41,020 nucleotides of DNA from Alistipes sp. (lineage in GTDB: Bacteria; Bacteroidota; Bacteroidia; Bacteroidales; Rikenellaceae): positions 1-41,020 of the forward strand of contig JAGAPT010000012.1 in assembly GCA_017623115.1 (NCBI GenBank), written 5' to 3'. The position numbers were made by a program, and so were the translations under genes. The notes beneath the pieces are model-generated. The model was not told the origin of the DNA. It ran no database searches and saw only the letters and a program-made list of their open reading frames with translations. Positions 32,414 to 36,065 of this stretch are shown piece after piece. Position 1 is the stretch's first letter; every line of letters begins with the position of its first letter.

Positions 32414-32450
32414 TTGTGTCATAAGTTGTCATTTTAGCCCCATACCTTTG
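32414..32450 (+). promoter_or_regulatory. Shared promoter/operator module, copy 1
   Basis: TTGTGTCATAAGTTG (32414-32428) recurs at 33938-33952. In both places the motif start is exactly 29 nt upstream of a -7 box, here TACCTTTG (32443-32450). A run like TTTTTTGAAA precedes both copies. In this copy the right palindromic arm is degenerate. Confidence 0.7.
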
Positions 32451-32490
32451 CACCAGAATACGATTCACGAACTACCTAACACATTCCGCT

Positions 32491-32910
32491 ATGACGCTAT
32501 TTATCTTCATCTACCTCGCCGTCTGCATCGGTATCGCTTATGTAATTGCAGATGATCTGAACACCCGTGTAAAACGCAAGCAAGAAGCACGTGCCGCCTA
32601 CTACTACACGCGCTATAACAAGTACGACGACTCGGAGATCAATACCCAACAAACATCCGATACAATCGCTTATCTACCACACGGTAGCGCGCAAGCAAGA
32701 CAAGCAGCATACGATGATCCCGAACTTTGCCCAAACTGTTGCGAGGACGATTACTGCTCCCAGCACAACCACCTTTTCTTGTCCACCGCAGATGATGATG
32801 CCTACCAATATTGGTATGGCGAAGCCGATCGGCACGAGAGCGAAAGCAGCTATAACCTCTTCGATGATGGGTATCACAACGACGATAGCAACGACAACAA
32901 CTTCTTCTAA
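32491..32910 (+). CDS. Small membrane-anchored acidic protein of unknown function
   Basis: A 139-residue protein I do not recognise. It has one N-terminal membrane segment (LFIFIYLAVCIGIAYVIA, residues 3-20), a short basic stretch (RVKRKQEARA) and then a long acidic, low-complexity region rich in D, N, Y and S. A small Cys cluster (CPNCCEDDYC) lies near residues 80-89 and could bind a metal. It ends DDSNDNNFF. The basic stretch suggests the acidic part is cytoplasmic. It shares its promoter/operator type with the Cys-rich small protein at 34015, so the two may be regulated together. Its stop codon forms part of the following terminator. Confidence 0.7.
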   Translation: MTLFIFIYLAVCIGIAYVIADDLNTRVKRKQEARAAYYYTRYNKYDDSEINTQQTSDTIAYLPHGSAQARQAAYDDPELCPNCCEDDYCSQHNHLFLSTADDDAYQYWYGEADRHESESSYNLFDDGYHNDDSNDNNFF

Positions 32911-32948
32911 CAGCACCCCTCGACCGAGAGGGGTTGCTGTTTTTTTTC
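32909..32948 (+). terminator. Terminator of the 32491 gene
   Basis: AACAGCA and CCCCTC (32909-32921) pair with GAGGGG and TGCTGTT (32928-32941), with one bulged T, followed by T residues; it begins within the TAA stop codon. Confidence 0.85.
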
Positions 32949-32959
32949 GGCTGACCACA

Positions 32960-32991
32960 TTTTGCATTTTGAATTCTAAATGCTAAATTTG
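32960..32991 (+). promoter_or_regulatory. Promoter of the WYL regulator gene (leaderless candidate)
   Basis: TTTTG (32960-32964) and TAAATTTG (32984-32991) are spaced by 19 nt. The ATG at 32996 begins only 5 nt after the -7 box, so the transcript should have almost no leader. Confidence 0.6.
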
Positions 32992-32995
32992 TACA

Positions 32996-33892
32996 ATGGA
33001 TCAGCCGAAAATCGAACGTCTGCTTCGCCTGATGAAGCTCCTGACAGCCAACACGACCTACACGGTCGATCAGTTGGCCGAGCGACTCGACATGTCACGT
33101 CGCACCATCTATCGCTACATCGACACCTTCCGAGATGCCGGCTTTGTCATCAAGAAATCGGGCGACTGCATCCGCCTGGATAAGGCTTCACCACACTTCA
33201 AAGACATCTCGCAGCTGGTTCACTTCACCGAGGAGGAGGCCGTCATCTTGAAAAATGCCATCGAGAACATCGACGACACAAACCTCCTCAAGCAGAATCT
33301 CAAAAAGAAACTCTACGCCGTCTACGACAACAAAACGCTCGCCAACACGGTTGTACGCGGTAAAAATGCCCCCAATATCCGCCAGTTGATTGAGGCTATC
33401 GAAGGGGAGCAGCAGGTGGTATTACACGATTATCAGGCTGCACACGGCTCGGGCGTAAGCGATCGTAGGGTAGAGCCCTTTGCCTTCACAACCAACTATG
33501 TACAGGTGTGGTGTCTCGACTTGAAAGACCTGCGTTGCAAGCTCTTCAAGACCTCCCGTATCGGCTCCGTGGAACTCACAACGAGCCCCTGGGAGCATAA
33601 AGCACTGCACGAAGAGGGCTTTATCGACTGCTTCCGCATGCACGGAGGGAAGCGCATGCACGTAGTCCTCGAAATGGGTATGCTGGCCTACAACCTGCTA
33701 TGCGAGGAGTATCCCCTGGCCGAACGTGATCTACACAAAGTCGAAGAGGGGCGTTGGGTACTCGACACAGAGGTAGCCGGCCCGGCTGCTATCGGGCGTT
33801 TTGTAGTGGGGTTACTCGATGATATCCGCATTCTCGAAGGCGACGAGTTGGTTGTTTATCTGCGTGATTACATGGCTAACAATCGCCTGTAA
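32996..33892 (+). CDS. WYL-domain transcriptional regulator
   Basis: A 298-residue regulator with an N-terminal HTH_11-type winged helix (about 5-60; YTVDQLAERLDMSRRTIYRYIDTF is the DNA-binding helix pair). A helical linker follows (FTEEEAVILKNAIENID), then a C-terminal WYL sensor domain (about 130-290) with VEPFAFTTNYVQVWCLDLKDLRCKLFKTSRIGSVEL. The signature WYL residues are replaced around VWCLDL, which is common in Bacteroidetes members. WYL domains sense nucleic acid or nucleotide ligands in several defence and DNA-damage regulators. No defence genes are visible nearby. A second in-frame Met at residue 13 is possible but would trim the HTH. Confidence 0.88.
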   Translation: MDQPKIERLLRLMKLLTANTTYTVDQLAERLDMSRRTIYRYIDTFRDAGFVIKKSGDCIRLDKASPHFKDISQLVHFTEEEAVILKNAIENIDDTNLLKQNLKKKLYAVYDNKTLANTVVRGKNAPNIRQLIEAIEGEQQVVLHDYQAAHGSGVSDRRVEPFAFTTNYVQVWCLDLKDLRCKLFKTSRIGSVELTTSPWEHKALHEEGFIDCFRMHGGKRMHVVLEMGMLAYNLLCEEYPLAERDLHKVEEGRWVLDTEVAGPAAIGRFVVGLLDDIRILEGDELVVYLRDYMANNRL

Positions 33893-33935
33893 TCGCTTTT
33901 CTTACTCTTTTTTTACTTTTTTTGAAACTTTTTTC

Positions 33936-33974
33936 TTTTGTGTCATAAGTTGACACAAAAGAGCCGTTCCTTTG
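33936..33974 (+). promoter_or_regulatory. Shared promoter/operator module, copy 2 (perfect palindrome)
   Basis: Arms TTTTGTGTCA (33936-33945) and TGACACAAAA (33951-33960) form a perfect 10-bp inverted repeat around TAAGT. The -7-like box TTCCTTTG (33967-33974) lies 29 nt from the motif start, the same distance as at 32414. Confidence 0.75.
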
Positions 33975-34014: not shown

Positions 34015-34236
34015 ATGGGAACAGCTTACAAGATTCGTTGCAAACATTGCGGCACACAATTCAACCATTCGAGCGATGCAAGCTATGGTTTTCTGCCCAC
34101 CTGCATCGGCTGTGGCGATAACCTGGGGCACATCGAGACGCAAGCCGCCATTCGCTGTCCGGCCTGCCTGAAACGACTGAACAACACACCCGAGGAGTTC
34201 AACGAACAGGTCGAAGTAACCTATTCGTGGGATTAA
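34015..34236 (+). CDS. Small zinc-ribbon-like protein
   Basis: A 73-residue protein with three CxxC pairs: CKHC (residues 9-12), CIGC (about 30-33) and CPAC (about 48-51). CKHC and CIGC are spaced as in a zinc ribbon, and the last pair may give a second half-site. The rest is polar (TQFNHSSDASYGFLPT, TPEEFNEQVEVTYSWD). I do not recognise a named family. Small zinc-ribbon proteins often bind nucleic acid or protein partners. The strong palindromic operator upstream suggests tight regulation together with the gene at 32491. Confidence 0.7.
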   Translation: MGTAYKIRCKHCGTQFNHSSDASYGFLPTCIGCGDNLGHIETQAAIRCPACLKRLNNTPEEFNEQVEVTYSWD

Positions 34237-34285: not shown

Positions 34286-34501
34286 ATGGTCGCGCTCATT
34301 GGTGCACTGATAAACGGATTTATGTACTTTACACTCATCCTCATCATCGCAATTGCTCTGATTATCCGATTGGGAATGCAGGCTATGGAGGAGCCGCAAC
34401 AGACCTACCGTCCGGCACAGCACCGCCCGCAATACATCCCCAAAACGCACTATCGTCAGGTTTTTTCGGTGCCCAGAAGCGCAAGGAGCAGAAAAAATTA
34501 A
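34286..34501 (+). CDS. Small membrane protein of unknown function
   Basis: A possible 71-residue protein with a long hydrophobic N-terminus (VALIGALINGFMYFTLILIIAIALIIRLGM, probably one or two membrane segments) and a polar, proline-rich tail. It lies 49 nt after the zinc-ribbon gene and may be co-transcribed. The tail SVPRSARSRKN looks unnatural. One base fewer in the run of six T at about 34460 would instead give GAQKRKEQKKLNKR, a more typical charged end, so a frameshift or sequencing error is possible. Coding status is moderate. Confidence 0.5.
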   Translation: MVALIGALINGFMYFTLILIIAIALIIRLGMQAMEEPQQTYRPAQHRPQYIPKTHYRQVFSVPRSARSRKN

Positions 34502-34508
34502 ACAAGCG

Positions 34509-34540
34509 TTGCGGATTCCGAAAAAAAATCGCTATCTTTG
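34509..34540 (+). promoter_or_regulatory. Promoter of the 34566-recA unit
   Basis: TTGC (34509-34512) and TATCTTTG (34533-34540) are spaced by 20 nt, with the ATG 25 nt further on. No LexA-like palindrome is evident between the promoter and recA. Confidence 0.65.
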
Positions 34541-34565: not shown

Positions 34566-34991
34566 ATGATAAAAACCCGATATAGCACACTCGTATTGGC
34601 TTGCTTGACGGCTGCTCTCCCCCTTGTTGCGCAAGAGCCGGCCATCATCTCGGCTAAGCGGTTGCATGAGGTGATTCCCGCAGCAAAAGTAGCCAATGCC
34701 ACGCCGACAAGCCGGCAATGGTTCGACGAGCGAATCGATCCCATACAACGAGAGCGACGACTGATTCGGGAAGCCCGCGCAGCCGAAGCCAGACGCAATG
34801 CGGTCGGGAATGCCAAGAAGAGTTCCTCTTCACAGGTACGATTCGGCAATACGGCATATGAGAACTGGAGCCCCTATCCGGATCGCGAACTCGATGCTCG
34901 CACATTGAGTTTTCCGATGTCAAAGAGCTCCATACAACGCAACGAGGCAAAAAAAGCCGCGATGCAACAGATGAAAAATATAAGCAAATAA
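34566..34991 (+). CDS. Small secreted protein of unknown function, upstream of recA
   Basis: A 141-residue protein with a signal peptide (MIKTRYSTLVLACLTAALPLVAQ). The mature part is basic and helical (ERRLIREARAAEARRNAVGNAKK), followed by NTAYENWSPYPDRELDARTLSFP and a Lys-rich C-terminal helix. I recognise no family. It lies 15 nt before recA behind a single strong promoter, so the two are probably co-transcribed, an odd pairing of an exported protein with a recombinase. It may simply lend its promoter to recA. Confidence 0.75.
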   Translation: MIKTRYSTLVLACLTAALPLVAQEPAIISAKRLHEVIPAAKVANATPTSRQWFDERIDPIQRERRLIREARAAEARRNAVGNAKKSSSSQVRFGNTAYENWSPYPDRELDARTLSFPMSKSSIQRNEAKKAAMQQMKNISK

Positions 34992-35006: not shown

Positions 35007-36065
35007 ATGGCAGAGAAAGCACAAGTAAATCCCGACAAGCTCAAAGTGTTGAGCGCGGTGATGGCAAAAATCGAGAAAGACTTCGGTAAAGGCTCGATTA
35101 TGCGCATGAACAGCAACGAAGTAAACGACGTGCCCGTCATTCCGACCGGCTCGGTAACCCTCGACATGGCCCTCGGCGTAGGTGGCTATCCCAAGGGACG
35201 TATCATCGAGATTTTCGGCCCCGAATCATCGGGTAAAACGACGTTGGCCATCCACGCAATTGCCGAGGCGCAGAAGGCTGGCGGCATTGCCGCCTTCATC
35301 GATGCGGAGCACGCTTTCGACAGCTACTACGCCCAGCAACTTGGCGTAGATGTCGACAACCTGCTGATTTCGCAGCCCGACAATGGCGAGCAGGCACTCG
35401 AAATTGCCGACTCGCTGATTCGTTCGAGTGCCATCGACATCATCGTCATCGACTCGGTGGCCGCCCTGACCCCGAAGGCTGAAATCGAGGGTGAGATGGG
35501 CGACTCGAAGATGGGTCTGCAGGCACGACTCATGTCGCAGGCGATGCGCAAGCTCACCTCCAGCATTTCGAAGACCAAGACCGTCTGCATCTTCATCAAC
35601 CAGTTGCGCGACAAAATCGGCGTCGTATACGGTAACCCCGAGACCACAACGGGTGGTAACGCCTTGAAGTTCTACTCGAGTGTCCGCATCGATATCCGCC
35701 GTGTATCGGTCATCAAGGATGGCGAGGAGCAGTTGGGTACCCGCACCCGCGTGAAAATCGTCAAGAATAAGGTGGCTCCTCCGTTCCGTCGTGCTGAATT
35801 CGACATCATGTTCGGCGAGGGTATCTCAAAGATTGGCGAGATTCTCGACTTGGGTGTCGACTACGGCATTATCAAGAAGGCCGGCTCGTGGTTCTCGTAT
35901 GGCGAGAAGAAGATTGGCCAGGGTCGTGATGCCGTCAAGGAGTTGCTCAAACAAGATGCCGACTTCTGCGCCGAGGTAGAGCAGAAGGTGCGCGAAGCCA
36001 TCAAGGCAGCCAAAGATGCTGCCCGCGGAGGCATCGCCGACAGCAAACCGGAAGGGGAGGAATAA
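35007..36065 (+). CDS. recA: Recombinase RecA
   Basis: A 352-residue strand-exchange protein for homologous recombination and the SOS response. Walker A is GPESSGKTT at 71-79; Walker B lies in [14 protein letters not shown]; loop L1 is [25 protein letters not shown]; loop L2 is [30 protein letters not shown]. The C-terminal domain includes [30 protein letters not shown] and ends in a short tail, [12 protein letters not shown]. All functional residues expected in RecA are present. It follows the small secreted-protein gene by 15 nt and is terminated by a large hairpin. Confidence 0.98.

Follow-up and report, generated by a model that had tools for sequence, protein, structure and literature searches.

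A WYL-linked promoter module of Bacteroidales that precedes the recA operon in Alistipes, and a proposed SOS-like regulon

The stretch of DNA analysed here is a 41,020-nt window (contig JAGAPT010000012.1 of an Alistipes sp., part of the 2.19-Mb genome G000) that carries two copies of a promoter module on either side of a gene encoding a WYL-type transcription factor, with the first copy preceding a small gene at 32491 and the second preceding a small gene at 34015 that heads the recA operon. We conclude that the module belongs to a real, WYL-linked promoter code in Bacteroidales, which in Alistipes has the recA operon behind it and which is a variant of the WYL activator theme with unusual reach. 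The WYL protein encoded at 32996 to 33892 is very probably the regulator of this module, because the module is found downstream of WYL genes in both search directions and because this protein is the only Pfam WYL match of the genome. We propose that the genes behind the module form a WYL-driven, SOS-like regulon in Bacteroidales and that the module may be the missing DNA-damage switch of these bacteria.

Results

Two TGWCA boxes at a fixed distance from the -7 box

A preliminary description of the window had reported the 15-mer TTGTGTCATAAGTTG in front of both small genes, and both copies are indeed exact (32414 to 32428 and 33938 to 33952). The -7 boxes TACCTTTG (32443 to 32450) and TTCCTTTG (33967 to 33974) each begin 29 nt past the start of their motif, the 25-bp palindrome at 33936 to 33960 with its 10-bp arms around TAAGT is perfect, and the translations contain the described cysteine motifs, i.e., CPNCC-x4-C in the product of 32491 and three CxxC pairs in the product of 34015. 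The similar run noted upstream of both copies holds insofar as a T-run ending in GAAA precedes each of them, but the distances differ (ca. 10 versus ca. 20 nt). On its own, the shared 15-mer is weak, with 0.78 matches expected in the window at up to three mismatches and two matches reached in 20 of 100 shuffles. A chance repeat, or a promoter copied without any regulon, is nevertheless barely credible: a 15-mer repeat by itself is not rare in 41 kb, but the case for more than chance is built on the module with its spacing in its own genome and across the genus Alistipes, where 101 genomes searched at up to one mismatch contain 139 sites in 77 genomes and none for the reversed control pattern, and a module site stands before 58 of 94 matches to the zinc-ribbon protein encoded at 34015.

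The fixed spacing also holds genome-wide, where module plus spacing has five matches with zero or one mismatch. The next matches are two with three mismatches, a level at which the reversed control also gives one per strand, and the 3-mismatch matches C13 and C52:20614 were discarded as noise. A further place (C2:6102) has TTTG at the right distance, yet it lies inside an open reading frame (ORF) with its second box broken and was excluded from the count.

The conserved unit consists of two TGWCA boxes with a period of 10 bp, followed by 11 nt and then TnnCTTTG. TGWCA is identical on both strands, so that "direct repeat" and "palindrome" are one and the same unit. The palindrome TTGTGTCANNNNNTGACACAA had been tried as a consensus of its own, but with up to three mismatches it gave one exact place in the genome and otherwise only 3-mismatch places, and it was replaced by TGWCA-N5-TGWCA. 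The loci fetched from the genus contain 114 distinct sites, with the box pairs TGTCA/TGTCA (60), TGTCA/TGACA (27), TGACA/TGTCA (14), TGACA/TGACA (7), and others (6).

The -7 box has the consensus TAnnTTTG, and its last G is by convention placed at -7. Under this convention, the two boxes lie at about -40 to -36 and -30 to -26 with their centre at -33, where the ordinary TTTG is absent and the TGWCA pair stands in its place. Since the search pattern itself comprised both boxes, the AA of the spacer, and CTTTG, their conservation stems partly from selection. Beyond the pattern, T is conserved at -14 (93%) and -31 (78%) and G at -15 (75%), as is an A/T-rich stretch at -52 to -47 (79% to 94%). The centre at -33, the spacing peak at N14 (see below), and the lack of TTTG at -33 together match the architecture of DriD- and PafBC-type promoters. 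An alternative sigma factor, which the preliminary description had offered as one explanation of the fixed spacing, is unnecessary because the swap affects the -33 element alone and leaves the CTTTG core of the -7 box in place. Direct recognition of TGWCA-N5-TGWCA and CTTTG by an extracytoplasmic function (ECF) sigma factor would account for an upstream element at fixed spacing from a -7 element, but we regard it as highly improbable given that this -7 element resembles that of the primary sigma factor, that two boxes one helical turn apart suit a dimeric helix-turn-helix (HTH) protein, and that the link between module and WYL gene extends well past the genus.

The module lies downstream of WYL genes in both search directions

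Among regulators, our linkage tests covered the WYL gene only. A motif-first scan of a species-genome collection with the exact pattern gave 98 stretches, 80 of them listed and covered by our analyses, of which 79 bear Bacteroidales-type names and one comes from Hutsoniella. A WYL homologue is present in 30 of the 80 (fetched length up to 8 kb), and each of these 30 has the motif on the same strand downstream of the WYL gene, at up to 60 bp from the end of the alignment in 11, up to 100 bp in 14, and up to 250 bp in 20 of them. The chance expectation for such co-location is ca. 0.3, by our own arithmetic from one such gene per 2.2 Mb.

In the search that started from the protein, 46 of 295 order genomes had a match to the WYL protein. 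Order loci were scored rather than pattern-matched because distant WYL homologues use degenerate boxes, and scores were obtained for 28 of the 29 order-wide loci besides that of the window, with one being too short. At least 14 of 17 points within 300 bp downstream of the WYL gene were reached by 17 of these 28 loci compared with 0.27% of 5,600 shuffles, and at the same cut the controls gave 1/28 upstream and 0/28 each for two intragenic stretches, the reversed pattern, and the antisense strand. The spacing peaks at N14 (11, 17, and 9 loci for N13, N14, and N15), and high scores extend down to WYL proteins of 35% to 40% identity. The order-wide case rests on these scored 300-bp stretches together with the motif-first records; a scan of viral contigs gave no exact module match.

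Within the genus, 72 genomes have both the WYL gene and the motif, 14 the WYL gene only, 5 the motif only, and 10 neither of them (Fisher p = 1.4e-4, shared ancestry ignored). A same-strand site lies within 1 kb downstream of 34 of the 92 genus WYL genes, at 0.03 expected; two partial matches inside open frames of 940 to 947 codons and one fragment were excluded from these WYL rows. The motif-first, protein-first, and genus co-occurrence tests thus back what the preliminary description had suggested, namely a shared regulator and a single regulon with the WYL protein as controller.

The second operator leads the recA operon

The gene at 34015 had been described as a lone small gene but instead heads the recA operon (Table 1), given that module sites precede zinc-ribbon genes and that 25 of the 30 loci fetched with the zinc ribbon also contain recA; truncation affects three of the five loci without it but not the other two. 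A search of 150 genomes located the zinc-ribbon protein in 82, all of them within the genus, and where a module site precedes it (58 matches in 58 genomes), this site lies 22 to 378 bp upstream; the total of 94 matches excludes one fragment row. A frequent gene order is zinc ribbon, AhpC/TSA (bcp-type) peroxiredoxin, and recA, and co-transcription of recA with bcp-type genes is reported for Bacteroides fragilis (PMC3025348). The gene content of the regulon suggests a role in DNA damage and in defence against invading DNA; since an AhpC/TSA peroxiredoxin gene is often part of the recA operon, the trigger may still be an oxidative one.

Table 1. Features around the two module copies in the window
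Feature	Position	Strand	Remarks
WYL-type operator 1	32417..32431	+	TGTCATAAGTTGTCA = TGTCA-TAAGT-TGTCA, ca. -40 to -26; exact match to the genus pattern; precedes the 32491 gene
-7 box TACCTTTG	32443..32450	+	11 nt past operator 1
139-aa acidic protein, hydrophobic N-terminus (predicted membrane anchor), CPNCC-x4-C	32491..32910	+	hydropathy test; no Pfam family above cut-off
WYL gene promoter, ordinary-looking, TTTG-N19-TAAATTTG, no operator	32961..32991	+	same element in 6/30 loci examined, this genome included
HTH-WYL transcription factor, 298 aa, proposed activator	32996..33892	+	only Pfam WYL match in the genome
WYL-type operator 2	33941..33955	+	TGTCATAAGTTGACA = TGTCA-TAAGT-TGACA, within the palindrome 33936 to 33960; precedes the 34015 gene
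-7 box TTCCTTTG	33967..33974	+	11 nt past operator 2
73-aa three-CxxC zinc-ribbon protein, first gene of the recA operon	34015..34236	+	recA in 25/30 loci fetched with the zinc ribbon
71-aa protein, hydrophobic stretch (by eye)	34286..34501	+	same direction as the zinc-ribbon gene
Candidate internal constitutive promoter GTTG-N21-TATCTTTG	34508..34540	+	
141-aa protein, signal-like N-terminus (by eye)	34566..34991	+	no Pfam family; same direction
recA	35007..36065	+	Pfam RecA E 4.3e-138

The WYL protein

An N-terminal HTH followed by a WYL domain is the architecture seen among 20 aligned homologues of the window's protein, with HTH_11 in 20/20, WYL in 18/20, and WCX in 8/20 at E ≤ 0.01, and a profile of these homologues compared with the PDB finds PafBC as best match (E 1.8e-5). 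The protein of the window itself matches the PADLOC model of CRISPR-associated WYL proteins (E 1.5e-25). Its first five residues, MDQPK, are invariant across the 20 homologues, and the -7 box of its gene ends 4 nt ahead of the ATG (32984 to 32995), so that the mRNA may be leaderless.

A DriD/PafBC-like activator and its rivals

We consider it likely that both module copies are operators of a DriD/PafBC-like activator, namely the WYL protein encoded between them, which would recruit the housekeeping polymerase upon a signal of single-stranded DNA (ssDNA). The HTH domains of a WYL dimer would directly bind the two TGWCA boxes that flank -33 one helical turn apart, and this DriD-like dimer would activate rather than repress by bringing housekeeping RNA polymerase to promoters that have a -7 box but no TTTG at -33. 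The activator gene itself would be transcribed from its ordinary-looking promoter. By analogy with DriD and PafBC, both of which respond to ssDNA, the signal would most likely be ssDNA as a ligand of the WYL domain, arising from DNA damage as the probable inducer or from an invading genome.

A WYL repressor that covers the -33 region and is relieved by a ligand appears unlikely. The operator does overlap the -33 position, and there are repressors among other WYL proteins, such as sll7009, which acts on a type I-D CRISPR system. However, the module lacks the -33 TTTG that an unaided housekeeping promoter should have and that the WYL gene promoter does have, a fixed distance to the -7 box would be needless for a repressor, and the best profile match among WYL proteins of known structure is the activator PafBC.

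Several observations weigh against a WYL activator as the reader of the module. The genome encodes a 223-aa HTH-S24 protein (L323 1462 to 2133, G000 contig 8), possibly a LexA-like repressor judging from an architecture that resembles LexA-type or phage repressors, and this protein or another one of the PhoB/OmpR or CRP/FNR type might read the boxes with the WYL gene as a passenger or target. TGTCAT repeats that replace a -35 element are reminiscent of the E. coli pho box, which has a period of 11 bp; the pho-box reading was rejected in view of a period of 10 here and the stronger linkage to WYL. We find any such other reader quite improbable, as WYL, the one regulator gene covered by our linkage tests, is the linked gene in the motif-first and protein-first searches, and the LexA pattern CTAA-N5-TTAG is unenriched in the window (4 places with one mismatch versus 9.08 expected). 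This pattern, the only LexA pattern scanned, has no match with zero or one mismatch within 4 kb of recA.

The evidence for linkage to a WYL activator also has its gaps. At a cut of 13, the downstream stretches of 21/28 loci qualify compared with 3, 0, 0, 1, and 4 in the upstream, two intragenic, reversed, and antisense controls, and 7/28 order loci score below 13. Searched order-wide, the strict pattern occurs in 5/295 genomes, i.e., the own one, G172 (no mismatch, adjoining a WYL gene), and three with 1-mismatch sites and no WYL match, so that outside the genus it is about at noise level (4 matches in 4 genomes, one of them WYL-adjacent, versus 3 control matches). At the stringency used in the genus, 14 of 86 WYL-positive genomes have no site, and 5 of 15 WYL-negative genomes carry one (in assemblies that are 78% to 86% complete).

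At the level of the protein, the Pfam scores of the window's WYL protein are near or below the cut-offs, with 21.5 bits versus 21.8 for WYL (24.4 bits and above the cut-off in the genome search) and 16.8 bits versus 23.9 for WCX. Its WYL triad reads YVQ by eye, for a triad that is reported as not strongly conserved. The PafBC match consists of three weak stretches, and PafC (0.021) and DriD (8tp8, 0.77) rank below unrelated HTH proteins. Some WYL proteins act as repressors, and the half-sites of DriD are CGAC-N7-GTCG as opposed to TGWCA-N5-TGWCA, so that the module departs from the DriD-type consensus. Finally, the window contains a candidate promoter for recA itself (34508 to 34540), and control by the module is perhaps only partial.

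Genes behind the module

Besides the recA operon, the genes of the proposed regulon in the own genome encode a PLD-SNF2 helicase (C3), an HNH nuclease that follows a 45-aa acidic protein (C20), and a pair of acidic proteins whose N-termini are hydrophobic (32491 and C52). Elsewhere in the genus, among the fetched loci, a gyrB/parE-type gene is found at seven sites (L087, L092, L099, L144, L158, L168, and L183; called by Pfam for L087 and L183 and by eye for the other five), with a gene for a topoisomerase A subunit next to it in L183, and dnaE lies behind one site (L091). HIRAN proteins are encoded behind sites in L148 and L167, a C-5 DNA methylase directly behind the site in L146, and Cas12a in L189 with a small gene between the site and it. 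Genes in the motif-first set were inspected at 36 loci not labelled Alistipes or Rikenellaceae. Cas9 is encoded 215 nt behind the site of a Bacteroidales record (L237), and restriction-type and AbiH genes are also among those preceded by the module; a gene in L229 that looked Cas9-like was dropped, as Pfam gave no support.

Across the order, families were scored for 33 of the 35 ORFs that follow WYL genes, with 8 matches to Cas6, 7 to HIRAN, and single matches to Cas9, RNA ligase, and DNA methyltransferase. Distant Bacteroidales have a Cas6-type gene after the WYL gene, often with the module in between (L300, L311, L314, L316, L317, L321, L295, L302, and L209); module scores are 13 to 17 in 7/8 of the order loci and 12 in L302, and L209 is a pattern match. 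This arrangement suggests that CRISPR operons in distant Bacteroidales may be under the same promoter code.

A further gene near WYL genes encodes an uncharacterised protein of ca. 323 aa that starts with MELDIKLSINKK (L148 3892 to 4860), has kin in L098, L101, L140, L149, L167, L178, and L181, and mostly follows a HIRAN or HIRAN-like gene, with a WYL gene close by in L148, L167, L178, and L181. Its residues 187 to 258 show a weak RelA/SpoT-like match (NCBIfam TIGR00691, E 8.7e-11, far below the cut-off). In two genomes, the module lies upstream of an IS1595-type transposase-domain gene (L089 by Pfam; L191 with the same first 95 residues), and a mobile element may thus have captured the switch.

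Small acidic proteins

A homologue search of 101 genus genomes with the 32491 protein returned only itself, with no relative in the other 100; it is a candidate for a damage-induced small membrane effector. Small acidic proteins overall follow 34 of 140 distinct sites (control 1.0% to 2.3%), but 25 of these 34 belong to one family with an MSLWDW or MSFWDW start and are therefore not independent. The class that combines a hydrophobic N-terminus with an acidic tail is found behind 6/140 distinct sites (control 0.55% to 1.4%) and is weak. Two acidic proteins behind module sites that have hydrophobic N-termini, C52 (L068 1563 to 1973) and L175 (G027 contig 10), share a C-terminal SPDxLFxEPDYxDTRYDD (by eye), and the 32491 protein is similar to this pair in build, with a hydrophobic N-terminus and acidic character.

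The MSLWDW family is seen as a near-constant leader made of a module promoter and an acidic protein of 45 to 60 aa with an acidic-aromatic tail (L067 1565 to 1702). It recurs in L083, L086, L097, L102, L138, L139, L147, L156, L160 to L163, L182, L186, L190, L205, L233, L252, and L273, with Alistipes, Tidjanibacter, Muribaculaceae, and Bacteroidaceae records as hosts. The leader (MSLWDWLLAAW...) precedes changing and often defence-like cargo, including AbiH, NERD, Mrr-HNH, and sacsin-HNH proteins, and the locus looks like a mobile cassette slot. Its acidic-aromatic tail is reminiscent of the acidic tip of SSB.

Discussion

Taken to its full extent, our proposal is that one family of WYL activators serves as a substitute for the SOS response in Bacteroidales. 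In this scenario, ssDNA arising from damage or from invading DNA would turn on recA, type II topoisomerase, the replicative polymerase, HIRAN, CRISPR (cas6, cas9, and cas12a), restriction, and abortive infection genes. It would also turn on small acidic proteins that evolve fast, some of them membrane-anchored, and these would act as checkpoint or division brakes. We put this forward tentatively and rate it as somewhat likelier to be wrong than right. If it is true, DNA repair and immunity would have one promoter code in common. In a major order of gut bacteria, the module connects DNA repair with defence systems, CRISPR included, and with a regulator named, an operator of fixed spacing defined, and a list of genes given, the question is directly testable. 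A literature search across titles and the openings of abstracts, with few subscription journals included, found no description of the module or of a WYL-driven recA regulon in Bacteroidales.

Comparison with known systems

LexA SOS regulons of Bacteroidetes resemble the regulon described here in their control of core DNA-damage genes, and the two LexA groups with CTAA-N5-TTAG or GGA-N5-TCC sites are reported as absent from Bacteroidales (PMC8565304). LexA is a repressor acting at these sites, unlike the activator that we propose. Among WYL proteins, the regulators of CRISPR and defence loci are similar in that the WYL gene lies beside CRISPR and defence genes (PMC4012209). Unlike in those systems, one conserved module here joins defence genes with recA and replication genes. 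Further WYL regulators at defence loci are BrxR and CapW.

DriD of Caulobacter crescentus is a homodimeric WYL activator that binds an overlapping pseudo-palindrome centred on -35 at a fixed distance to the -10 element and anchors the polymerase on poor promoters (PMC12340889). The system in Bacteroidales shares with it a winged HTH-WYL protein, a pseudo-symmetric site over the -35 position at a fixed -10 distance, and poor -35 elements, and the DriD targets likewise include repair genes and a cell-division regulator, DidA. In composition, the two regulons differ, with didA, bapE, recJ, and dnaG as targets of DriD compared with the recA operon, topoisomerase, CRISPR, and HIRAN genes here.

PafBC is the likeness with regard to recA itself, being a WYL regulator of this gene (PMC11804915, PMC5656591, PMC6789036). 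In this system, PafB reads a -26 motif, PafC contacts domain 4 of the sigma factor, and the system is triggered by ssDNA in the WYL domains (PMC11804915). A heterodimer of PafB and PafC on a single -26 motif is, however, different from one WYL gene (one Pfam match) and two boxes, and the -7 boxes differ in kind (TannnT for PafBC versus TnnCTTTG here). The mycobacterial recA P1 consensus, tTGTCRgtg-8 nt-TannnT, can be written as TGTCR-N11-TannnT (PMC5656591), and its box and spacing equal those of box 2 and the -7 box of the module, which suggests that the promoter geometry of WYL activators is conserved across phyla.

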